Positions 18,254 to 20,696 of a stretch of 64,000 bases of DNA are shown piece after piece. A model generated the notes under the pieces. It saw only the letters and a list, made by a program, of their open reading frames with translations. It did not search any database and had not been told where the DNA came from. The stretch comes from Streptosporangium minutum (lineage in GTDB: Bacteria; Actinomycetota; Actinomycetes; Streptosporangiales; Streptosporangiaceae). Where the stretch lies: NCBI RefSeq assembly GCF_002149035.1, contig NZ_NGFP01000004.1, positions 1 through 64,000 of the forward strand, read 5' to 3'. A program made the translations under genes and the position numbers. Each line of letters opens with the position of its first letter. The first letter of the stretch is position 1.

Positions 18254-19195
18254 CTACCGGCTGAGCGTGGCCGGGCGGCCGATCCCGGCGATCAGCTCCA
18301 GCTGGTCGAGCTGCGCGTCGAGGGTCGGGGCCGCGATGCGGCAGACGAGGTGTTCCGCACCCGCCTCCGTGTAGCGGTTCAGCGTCGCGGCCACCCGCTC
18401 GGCCGGGCCCGCGACCATCGCCTGGATCGTCCGCACCGTCTCGTACGGCAGGCCGTACGTGGACCGGCAGTAGGCGTCGAGCTGCCGCTCGCCCCGCTCC
18501 ACGTCGTCGGTGACCAGCACCGTGACGAACAGCGCCGGGGTGACCGCGTCGCCGGGGCGGCCCGCCGCCCCGGCTGCCCGCCGTACCGCCCGGAGACCCG
18601 CGCGGTAGTCGGCCGGGTCGGGCGGGTAGGGCAGCCAGCCGTCGTAGAGCCGCCCGGTGCGCTCCAGCGCCGACGGGCCGGCCCCGCCCAGCCAGATCGG
18701 CGGCCCGCCGGGCCGGTAGGACGGCGTGGAGTCGGGCAGCCCGTCGAAGCGCAGCACCTTGCCGTGGAACGCCCGCTCGCCCGCCCACAGTGCCCGCCAC
18801 AGGGCGACGGTGTCGTCCAGCCGTCCGAAGCGGCGCTCCCACGGCACCTCCGACACCGCGTACTCAGCCTCCGACCTGCCGGGGAAGCCCGCGCCCACGG
18901 TGACGACCAGCCGCCCGGCCGACAGGTGGTCGATGGAGGCCAGCTCCTGCGCGGCCGTGACCGGACGGCGGAAGGCGGGCAGCAGCGCCGCGGTGCCGAG
19001 CGTGACGCGTTCGGTCACCGGCGCGAGGGCGGCGAGCATGGCCAGCGGCTCGACGCGCGCGCCGAGCAGGGTGTCGTTGGCCCAGACCGAGTCGTAGCCG
19101 AGCCGTTCAGCGCGGACGCCGAAGTCGACCAGCCGCCGGGCGTCGTTCCACTGGCTGTGGTTGGTGGGGAGCAGGACCCCCAGTCGCGTGTTCAC
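18254..19195 (-). CDS. LLM-class flavin-dependent oxidoreductase (luciferase-like)
   Basis: A 313-aa TIM-barrel enzyme of the bacterial luciferase-like family that uses F420 or FMN. Recognisable parts are RLGVLLPTNHSQWNDARRL at the first strand, LAALAPVTERVTLGTAALL, the SAGRLVVTVGAGFPGRSEAEY block, and RPGGPPIWLGGAGPSALERT. It starts at GTG 19195; upstream codons overlap the promoter region. It is divergent from an XRE regulator, and the gap carries a motif also found before the SnoaL-like gene at 20616. The substrate is unknown. Confidence 0.88.
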   Translation of the reverse strand: MNTRLGVLLPTNHSQWNDARRLVDFGVRAERLGYDSVWANDTLLGARVEPLAMLAALAPVTERVTLGTAALLPAFRRPVTAAQELASIDHLSAGRLVVTVGAGFPGRSEAEYAVSEVPWERRFGRLDDTVALWRALWAGERAFHGKVLRFDGLPDSTPSYRPGGPPIWLGGAGPSALERTGRLYDGWLPYPPDPADYRAGLRAVRRAAGAAGRPGDAVTPALFVTVLVTDDVERGERQLDAYCRSTYGLPYETVRTIQAMVAGPAERVAATLNRYTEAGAEHLVCRIAAPTLDAQLDQLELIAGIGRPATLSR

Positions 19196-19217
19196 AGGAC
19201 GGATCGTGCTCCCGTCC

Positions 19218-19246
19218 GGGAATGCCGACAATTCCCTCGACGGAAT
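19218..19246. promoter_or_regulatory. Shared regulator motif, copy 1 (LLM / XRE divergent promoter)
   Basis: GCCGACAATTCC-N6-GGAAT occupies 19224-19246. It contains the inverted repeat ATTCC-N6-GGAAT, and with the preceding GGGAAT (19218-19223) a second arrangement GGGAAT-N7-ATTCCC. The same 17 defined bases recur at 20674-20696. Confidence 0.55.
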
Positions 19247-19270
19247 AGACGGACCCGGCAGACTGGGATC

Positions 19271-19996
19271 GTGGACTTCTCCCAGACCCTGCGCGCGACC
19301 CGGCAGCGCCGCCACCTCAGCCAGCTCGACCTCGCCCTGCGCGCGGGCACGACGCAGCGCCACCTCAGCTTCATGGAGAGCGGCCGCTCCCGGCCCGGCC
19401 GGACCATGGTGGTACGGCTGGGCGAGTCGATGGAACTACCGCTCAGGGAGCGCAACGATCTCCTGCTCTCGGCCGGTTACGCCCCCGTCTACCCGCAGAC
19501 CCCGCTGGACGACCCGAGCCTGGAGCACGTGCGCACCGCGCTGGGGCACATCCTGGCCGGGCACCTGCCCTACCCCGCGATCGTCGTGGACGCGGGGCAC
19601 GACCTGGTGCTCGCCAACGACGCGTTCGGCCTGCTCACCGAGGGCGTCGCGGAGCACCTGCTGCGCCCGCCGGTCAACGTGCTGCGCCTCTCCCTGCACC
19701 CGGAGGGCCTGGCGCCCCGGATCGTCAACCTGGCGCAGTGGGCTCGCCACATCCTCGACCGCATCCCGCACGACGACCTGTACGACGAGCTGTCCGGCTA
19801 CGTGCCGCACGCCGCCCCGGGGCCCGACCACGTGGGCTTCGCCGCCCCCGTCCGGCTCCGCTCGACGCTCGGCGAGCTGCGGCTGACGACCACGATCACG
19901 ACGTTCGCGACCGCGCTCGACGTGACCGTGGCGGAGCTGAAGCTGGAGGCGTTCCTGCCCGCCGACACGGCCACGGCGGCGCTGCTGGCCGGGTGA
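19271..19996 (+). CDS. XRE-family transcriptional regulator, MmyB-like
   Basis: The 241-aa protein has an N-terminal helix-turn-helix (about 5-62: LRATRQRRHLSQLDLALRAG, TQRHLSFMESGRSRPGR) and the C-terminal ligand-binding domain of MmyB-type regulators (PAIVVDAGHDLVLANDAF, VNVLRLSLHPEGLAPRIVN). The start is GTG at 19271. It faces the flavin oxidoreductase, and the matching motif before the SnoaL-like gene suggests it controls both. Confidence 0.88.
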   Translation: MDFSQTLRATRQRRHLSQLDLALRAGTTQRHLSFMESGRSRPGRTMVVRLGESMELPLRERNDLLLSAGYAPVYPQTPLDDPSLEHVRTALGHILAGHLPYPAIVVDAGHDLVLANDAFGLLTEGVAEHLLRPPVNVLRLSLHPEGLAPRIVNLAQWARHILDRIPHDDLYDELSGYVPHAAPGPDHVGFAAPVRLRSTLGELRLTTTITTFATALDVTVAELKLEAFLPADTATAALLAG

Positions 19997-20023
19997 CGGG
20001 CCGGGGCGGTCCGGGGACGATCA

Positions 20024-20140
20024 CGGCCCGGCCCGGCCCGAAGCGGGTGGGATCGGACCGGACCGGCTCGGCTCCGCTCGGAGCGGGTTGGATCGGGGCG
20101 ACCCGGCCCGGCCCGGCTCGGAGCGGGTTGGATCCGACCG
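20024..20140. repeat. Three-copy 40-bp direct repeat
   Basis: GCGGGT(T/G)GGATC recurs at 40-bp steps (GATC at 20051, 20091 and 20131), each inside a CGG-rich unit ending CTCGGAGCGGGTTGGATC. It fills the gap between the convergent XRE and SnoaL-like genes. No gene is visible. Confidence 0.7.
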
Positions 20141-20193
20141 GGTCGGCCCCGGGAGGCGGTCGCGGCCCGGGGCGGATCGACCACGACCGGCTG

Positions 20194-20616
20194 TCAGATG
20201 CCGGGGAACATGTAGTCGGTGGTGATGCGGCCGTTCTCGTCCAGGACGAGGACCTCCAGGCCGCCGCCGACCGCCTCACCGCCGCCGACGGGCACCATCT
20301 CCCAGTTGAGCTTGACGACGTCGTGGAGGCGGACGGCGCCGTCCCGCGCCTGGAAGGTGAACTGCCCGGGGGCGACGAACCGTTCATAGCTGCGGGTCAC
20401 CCGGACGTCGAGTTCGTCATAGCCGTGGGCTTGGAGAGTGGTGGAGTCAAAGCCCAGTCCTGCGGCGATCTCCCGGATCTCCTGGGGCGGCTGAAGGATG
20501 TGGGCACCGCCCTCGGCCCAGAGCTCCTCGATGGCTCTGCGACGCAGCTCGGCGTCCGGCTCGCTCCAGAGGGCGATGTAGCGGGCAGCCAGGTCCTGGG
20601 CATGGATGTCGGTCAC
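20194..20616 (-). CDS. NTF2-like/SnoaL-like protein
   Basis: A 140-aa single-domain protein with the NTF2-like opening helix and strand pattern (DLAARYIALWSEPDAELRRRAIEELWAEGGAHI) and later strands (FTFQARDGAVRLHDVVKLNWEMV, GLEVLVLDENGRITTDYMF). Members act as small-molecule isomerases or hydrolases, or as binding proteins; this one may be non-enzymatic. The promoter region holds the second copy of the motif found before the XRE/LLM pair. Confidence 0.8.
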   Translation of the reverse strand: MTDIHAQDLAARYIALWSEPDAELRRRAIEELWAEGGAHILQPPQEIREIAAGLGFDSTTLQAHGYDELDVRVTRSYERFVAPGQFTFQARDGAVRLHDVVKLNWEMVPVGGGEAVGGGLEVLVLDENGRITTDYMFPGI

Positions 20617-20673
20617 TTTTTCTCCTTGGCTGGTGCCGGTGTTCCTGCCAGATCCTGCGAGAAGGGACCATGG

Positions 20674-20696
20674 GCCGACAATTCCTCAGAGGGAAT
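20674..20696. promoter_or_regulatory. Shared regulator motif, copy 2 (SnoaL-like gene promoter)
   Basis: GCCGACAATTCC-N6-GGAAT lies 58 bp upstream of the SnoaL-like start, matching 19224-19246 in all 17 defined bases and in orientation. The spacers differ, so this is a conserved site and not a long duplication. Confidence 0.55.

Follow-up and report, generated by a model that had tools for sequence, protein, structure and literature searches.

The repeated motif

This locus raises the question of what a motif does that occurs twice in the window, the whole 64-kb stretch of DNA analysed here, with the gene for an XRE regulator between the two copies. Judged from the sequence, the two copies are very probably docking sites for the product of that gene. 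The explanation that we favour as a whole, and hold with high confidence, is that both motifs contain operators of this MmyB/MltR-type regulator (19271-19996), through which a small set of enzymes would be controlled.

The motif, GCCGACAATTCC-N6-GGAAT, is present without mismatches at 19224-19246 and 20674-20696, both on the plus strand, and the 64-kb window has no further exact copy. The initial annotation had described two copies in one orientation with different spacers, and this is what the scan gave, with exact matches starting at 19224 and 20674 and the spacers CTCGAC in the first copy and TCAGAG in the second. With up to three mismatches allowed there are three matches in the window against 0.12 expected from shuffles, and none of 100 shuffled windows contained three; the third match is the first site on the opposite strand, since the core is palindromic. 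A location within 80 bp of gene starts was also borne out, as 28 nt lie between the first copy and the start of an LLM-class oxidoreductase gene (19195), 24 nt between the same copy and the start of the XRE gene (19271), and 57 nt between the second copy and the start of a gene for a SnoaL-like protein (20616).

The motif as a unit had to be redefined: both copies are present as described, but the conserved unit is a 16-bp palindrome, ATTCC-N6-GGAAT, and the rest is a predicted -35 box of the regulated gene that abuts it, so that the motif is a composite. The -35 portion is GCCGACAA, which on the minus strand reads TTGTCGGC. An operator consisting of the entire GCCGAC...GGAAT string was not accepted, since different genera have ATTCCN6GGAAT in common but not the flank; GACA, GGCA, CTCA and CGCG are all found beside the palindrome in different loci, and the palindrome therefore is the conserved unit. 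For the GCCGAC half, a -35 box belonging to the target gene on the minus strand is the better reading, and the "same orientation" of the two copies accordingly means orientation relative to the LLM and SnoaL-like genes. Operator 1, ATTCC-CTCGAC-GGAAT (19231..19246), is located in the 75-bp intergenic region between the divergent LLM and XRE genes and is conserved both in the genus and among 102 homologous loci, and operator 2, ATTCC-TCAGAG-GGAAT (20681..20696), is upstream of the SnoaL-like gene and conserved in the genus; neither is assigned to a strand.

Genes at the locus

The regulator gene (19271..19996, plus strand, P0001) starts with GTG and encodes an XRE protein of 241 aa that belongs to the MmyB/MltR family. 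Residues 87-239 match PF17765 with 68.6 bits (cut-off 26.3, E 9e-19) and constitute an MmyB-type, PAS-like ligand domain, and the N-terminal HTH is recognized by PF01381 (HTH_3) and PF13560, both above cut-off. The best PDB match is 3pxp, both by sequence profile and by fold. The predicted model has a pLDDT of 91.2, and ranks 1 and 2 in Foldseek are both 3pxp with an E-value of 9e-11, a TM-score of 0.45-0.49 and an rmsd above 9, the low TM-score and high rmsd indicating that the two domains may sit differently. The closest named relative among the best 80 of 565 homologues is the XRE protein of Streptosporangium canum, with 99.6% identity by BLAST, which points to a genome in Streptosporangium or close to that genus.

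The first target gene is divergent and encodes an LLM-class (luciferase-like) oxidoreductase (18254..19195, minus strand), with 183 bits to PF00296 (cut-off 27.9, E 1e-53). Its score of 148.4 to the F420 subfamily TIGR03619 is under the cut-off of 166.9, and its cofactor, F420 or FMN, is thus unproven. A divergent oxidoreductase gene that has its upstream region in common with the regulator gene is a trait of the MmyB/MltR family, and here the LLM gene, 75 bp away, takes this place. In S. canum (L032 / L091) the first 18 LLM codons alone remain to the left of the XRE gene, and the operator is intact.

The second target gene (20194..20616, minus strand) encodes a SnoaL-like protein of 140 aa with an NTF2 fold. 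In the Pfam search the protein of the window had no match and did not reach the SnoaL model, and six of 47 homologues touch SnoaL_2, with a best E-value of 3e-4. By profile it matches 3dxo, which is SnoaL-like, with an E-value of 1e-11, and its model (pLDDT 94.8) has 3dxo as the best fold match, with TM-scores of 0.75/0.89, the next matches including CatM and ketosteroid isomerases. The modelled protein is thus assigned to the cone-shaped alpha+beta fold of SnoaL and ketosteroid isomerase. The identities given to the three genes at the outset, an MmyB-like XRE regulator (PF17765), an LLM oxidoreductase (PF00296) and a SnoaL-like fold (3dxo), all hold. Imperfect GC-rich repeats with GGAGCGGGTTGGATC-like units occupy positions 20020-20140 of the window, between the stop codons of the XRE and SnoaL-like genes.

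Conservation of the palindrome at regulator loci

Homologous regulator loci were collected from named relatives (80 loci, the best 80 of 565, from at least 25 named genera as counted by eye) and from the family (22 loci), 102 in all. In 85 of these 102 loci an exact palindrome is found in the 260 bp that precede the regulator, and in 95 this span has a palindrome with at most one mismatch. Nine control patterns were searched exactly, five of them scrambled and four with the spacers N4, N5, N7 and N8; eight were found in none of the 102 loci and one in a single locus, and with one mismatch allowed the five scrambled patterns were found in 0, 0, 0, 0 and 1 of the 102. The 102-locus counts do not represent independent events, since the loci were found by regulator homology, are related and come partly from the same genomes; with distinct upstream sequences only, the palindrome is exact in 80 of 96.

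Among the close orthologous loci of the genus ATTCCN6GGAAT begins 40 bp before the regulator in all eight, and seven of the eight have a second copy before the linked SnoaL gene. In the eighth genome (G006) a copy is found at an unlinked SnoaL gene, some 190 kb away from the regulator (L083 vs L034). An LLM or SnoaL homologue is divergent to the regulator in 74 of the 102 loci, and further loci have an MDR dehydrogenase or SnoaL_2 gene in this position. Six Nocardia loci (L111, L132, L136, L137, L141 and L160) contain a pair of tandem palindromes 37-47 bp apart, some with one mismatch, between the SnoaL gene (MDR in L160) and the XRE gene.

In seven of the 102 loci (L096-L098 and L175-L178) the 260 bp before the regulator contain no site, and all seven keep a site at the linked SnoaL gene. 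None of the seven has a divergent LLM or SnoaL gene, which 74 of the 95 site-bearing loci do have (Fisher 6e-5, for sequences that are related). The predicted -10 box of the regulator, GGCAGACT, is kept in six of the seven (L096-L098 and L175-L177), corresponding to five distinct sequences, as L096 and L177 are identical. This pattern of loss suggests an operator whose first role is at the targets, with autoregulation coming after it. Among the 95 loci with a site, 21 lack an LLM or SnoaL homologue in divergent orientation within 320 bp, and 15 of these were examined: an MDR dehydrogenase gene is present in five (L145, L155, L160, L166, L170) and a SnoaL_2 gene in one (L109), an LLM gene is found farther off in one (L164), the neighbours are unrelated or unclear in six (L099, L101, L131, L140, L152, L185), and there is none in two (L133, L161).

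Copies in whole genomes

In 30 genomes that contain such loci the pattern CAATTCCN6GGAAT has 45 copies, with 0-4 per genome and 29 of the 30 genomes matched, and the re-spaced palindromes N7 and N5 have four each. Forty of the 45 copies are at a regulator locus, where the usual partner is a SnoaL, LLM or MDR gene; copies without a locus of their own were assigned to L097, L098, L107, L131 and L151 by sequence and position, by eye. Four copies precede unlinked homologues, namely an LLM gene (L200), a SnoaL gene (L221), a SnoaL_2 gene (L214) and an MDR gene (L202), and one (L199) has no recognised target homologue beside it.

The longer pattern GACAATTCCN6GGAAT is found at 32 places in 341 genomes of the family, and the reversed pattern at none. 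Genomes of this kind avoid TTA, which is contained in the reversed pattern, making this control not fully fair, and the re-spaced controls were added for this reason. XRE, SnoaL, LLM or MDR homologues are found at 29 of the 32 family sites, MDR homologues being preceded by the sites in L066 and L068, and three exact sites (L063, L070, L078) have no recognised target homologue adjoining; these three and L199 are either chance copies or mark further target types. A regulator with an E-value of 1e-70 or better is encoded by 24 of the 26 site-bearing genomes, against 107 of the 341 overall (Fisher p 2e-11, with the overlap of site-bearing and regulator-bearing genomes counted by eye). Targets that carry a site without linkage to the regulator include LLM genes on another contig (L077, L200) and extra SnoaL genes (L081, L221).

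The small regulon that had been proposed thus finds support in this conservation, as the palindrome tracks the regulator subfamily and its SnoaL, LLM and MDR partners across actinomycetes, at 0-4 copies per genome in the 30 genomes. Many copies unrelated to promoters, the outcome that the initial annotation had set against its own proposal, did not occur, 44 of the 45 copies being at such genes. One locus, L223 (G352:C51:162300-165500), has a second MmyB-like regulator, 59% identical to that of the window, with an ATTCC-N6-GGAAT operator and a divergent MDR gene; the genome also has a SnoaL-type locus, and cross-talk is possible.

Predicted promoters and position of the operator

The LLM gene has a predicted -35 box, TTGTCG (19226..19231, minus strand), with its first T common to the operator, and after a 17-bp spacer a predicted -10 box, CACGAT (19203..19208, minus strand), 7 nt before the GTG start codon, so this transcript should be leaderless. 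The same -35 hexamer is predicted for the SnoaL-like gene (20676..20681, minus strand), with a putative -10 box CAGGAT (20652..20657, minus strand) after an 18-bp spacer, and AGGAGAAA (20619..20626, minus strand) is the likely ribosome binding site. For the XRE gene a -10 box CAGACT (19259..19264, plus strand) is predicted 6 nt before GTG, again without a leader, and GGCAGACT is kept there in other loci; operator 1 overlaps the expected -35 position of this gene.

The geometry was examined in alignments of sites that were all chosen for an exact operator, 44 distinct on the LLM side, 48 on the SnoaL side and 40 distinct on the regulator side. On the LLM side TTG adjoins the palindrome in 44 of 44, all of them chosen for the exact operator, the A and T of an nAnnAT box are at fixed places in 31 and 30 of the 44, and an in-frame start codon is found 34-36 nt from the operator edge in 41, a distance at which the LLM transcripts look leaderless. 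The SnoaL side is looser, with T as the base after the operator in 33 of 48 and C in 13, and the -10 A and T are each present in 38 of 48; most of these genes have a leader, and in roughly one in four the start codon follows at 34-36 nt. On the regulator side the 40 distinct sites at -49 to -52 are accompanied by a box resembling TACAAC, from which the start codon is 6-7 nt away, and by sequence most regulator genes look leaderless. In loci with the site at -49 to -52 one presumed dimer site is located midway between two promoters and ends near -36 of each. In the clade of the window the regulator start is nearer, and the operator consequently overlaps the -35 region of the regulator.

Further sites in the genome and a paralogous group

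A search of the genome for further copies and their targets, as the initial annotation had advised, gave a third site outside the window, at C190:43112 (L003, G000:C190:41612-44628), which is located in front of a further SnoaL-like gene and, after it, an MDR dehydrogenase gene. The SnoaL-like gene of L003 is 55% identical to that of the window, and its MDR dehydrogenase is 56% identical to that of L145. The divergent regulator of L003 is a remnant of 38 residues, 95% identical to the relative in L127, that ends at TTQR, beyond which there are other genes. If the remnant is real and no assembly fault, the regulator of the window is a likely remaining reader of the third site. AATTCCN6GGAAT occurs exactly at five places in the genome, and two of these, C13:44449 and C544:18824, have no target homologue within 1.5 kb. 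With one mismatch there are 30 matches against four for the control; most of the additional matches are unrelated, five of them being copies of one repeat (ACTTCCGGGTTCGGAAT), and exact matches alone were therefore used.

A second MmyB-like group is present in the genus (L040-L055), 49-56% identical and mostly with ISTRH instead of TTQRH. Upstream of these genes there is an ATTAC-N7-GTAAT palindrome, in most followed by GGTT, and TTAC-N7-GTAATGG is exact in eight of 16 loci. Where intact, the palindrome ends about 36-37 bp before a likely leaderless start, with the start codons read by eye. A different recognition helix together with a different palindrome hints at a family-wide code.

Proposed regulation and its alternatives

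Seen directly were the sequence and conservation of the operator, its joint occurrence with the regulator, the neighbour genes and the near-constant distances; binding, the dimer, the promoter boxes, the direction of control and the ligand are what we infer. A dimer of the regulator would most likely read ATTCC and GGAAT in two successive major grooves, with half-site centres 11 bp apart. At the LLM and SnoaL promoters the operator would span about -51 to -36. Its last T would belong to the predicted -35 box TTGTCG as well, and a protein bound there would be placed like a class II activator, beside sigma region 4. In class II activation, exemplified by lambda CI at PRM and by CRP at its class II sites, the operator abuts the -35 box with its centre near -42 to -43.5. 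The operators described here would have the same arrangement, and ligand-gated activation is the preferred mechanism on account of this position. The PAS-like domain would bind a small hydrophobic signal or substrate, and the ligand-bound dimer would switch on the LLM oxidoreductase, the SnoaL-like protein and, elsewhere, the MDR dehydrogenase. As operator 1 overlaps the -35 region of the regulator's own, presumably leaderless promoter in this clade, the regulator is expected to hold its own gene down.

The same operator could serve a repressor, a reading that is possible but rather doubtful. The unliganded protein would then block the -35 region of the LLM, SnoaL-like and regulator genes until released by the enzyme substrate, which is the scheme of many one-component detoxification switches. 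The operator does touch the target -35 boxes and, in this clade, also extends over the -35 region of the XRE gene, and the TTGnC -35 is near consensus, so that the promoters could fire unaided; it is rather good for an activator-dependent promoter and counts against activation. An XRE protein of C. glutamicum, MsrR, represses divergent genes and itself according to passages of PMC7532634. Against repression, the target-side edge of the operator is held near -36 and the operator does not cover the -35 and -10 boxes, and the founder of the family, MmyB, is described as an activator in the sections of PMC3406030 consulted.

Ownership of the site is judged by association, and the palindrome might instead belong to another regulator, encoded elsewhere, that controls the LLM, SnoaL-like and MmyB-like genes together. 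Two site-bearing genomes (G049 and G184) have no XRE homologue at E 1e-70, which would fit this improbable case, but G184 is just 63% complete, an MmyB-like regulator is found in the other 24 of the 26 site-bearing genomes, 40 of the 45 copies in the 30 genomes are at regulator loci, and the paralogue group, with its different recognition helix, has a different palindrome in the same place. A further possibility, that no specific regulator is involved and the repeat arose by chance or is simply a promoter element, has hardly any probability left. Part of the repeat (TTGTCGGC) is indeed read as a -35 box, but there are few copies, and almost all of them are found at a small number of gene families. 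Both the chance and the plain-promoter readings were rejected on the expectation of 0.12 matches in the window at three mismatches and on the drop from 45 copies to four each for N5 and N7 in the same 30 genomes.

Relation to known regulators

Direct control by the MmyB-like regulator, preferably as a ligand-gated activator, can be compared with described systems. MmyB, from the methylenomycin cluster on SCP1 of S. coelicolor, likewise joins an XRE HTH to an MmyB-type ligand domain, and pseudo-palindromic "B-boxes" have been suggested as its sites in the portion of PMC3406030 consulted. Its targets differ, being antibiotic genes, and the B-boxes are likened to our operators by description. MltR (Caur_2278, PDB 3pxp) is the best PDB match of the XRE protein by sequence and fold and also has a divergent oxidoreductase gene; the site predicted for it, in the same part of PMC3406030, is two-fold, with a separation of about one helical turn. 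The MmyB-like genes of actinomycetes described there are linked to SDR and MDR genes, whereas SnoaL-like and LLM genes are the main partners here and are joined by MDR genes in some clades. No operator sequence for MltR or MmyB-like genes was found in the consulted part of PMC3406030. A 2025 survey reports, in its main text, 223 palindromic motif clusters of XRE regulators, with conserved palindromes upstream of XRE genes and half-sites in adjacent major grooves, as here (PMC12565409). Neither ATTCC nor GGAAT appears in the main text of that survey, and ATTCC-N6-GGAAT may be among its clusters (Table S1). Our literature searches listed no paper on an ATTCC-N6-GGAAT operator of an MmyB-like regulator.

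The two regulator groups together lead to a tentative joint claim, about which we remain somewhat on the doubtful side: MmyB-like regulators would share a positional and a recognition code, the operators and targets of many uncharacterised actinomycete members would be predictable from sequence, and the intact regulator of the window would command the third, unlinked SnoaL-MDR pair. The positional part could be that the site ends near -36, in many cases with a single dimer shared by the two divergent, leaderless promoters on either side, and the recognition part could be that the start of the recognition helix sets the half-site, TTQRH giving ATTCC with N6 and ISTRH giving ATTAC with N7.

Actinomycetes encode many MmyB-like regulators, and these have links to antibiotic and redox genes (PMC3406030, in the part consulted); with the same site before the same few enzyme genes in many relatives this poorly understood family gains a concrete set of likely targets. 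The operator ties an unassigned SnoaL-like family and the LLM oxidoreductase to one signal, and with a specific 16-bp site that has 0-4 copies per genome, a nearly fixed place in the promoter and few kinds of target, the binding, the direction of control and the ligand become directly testable.
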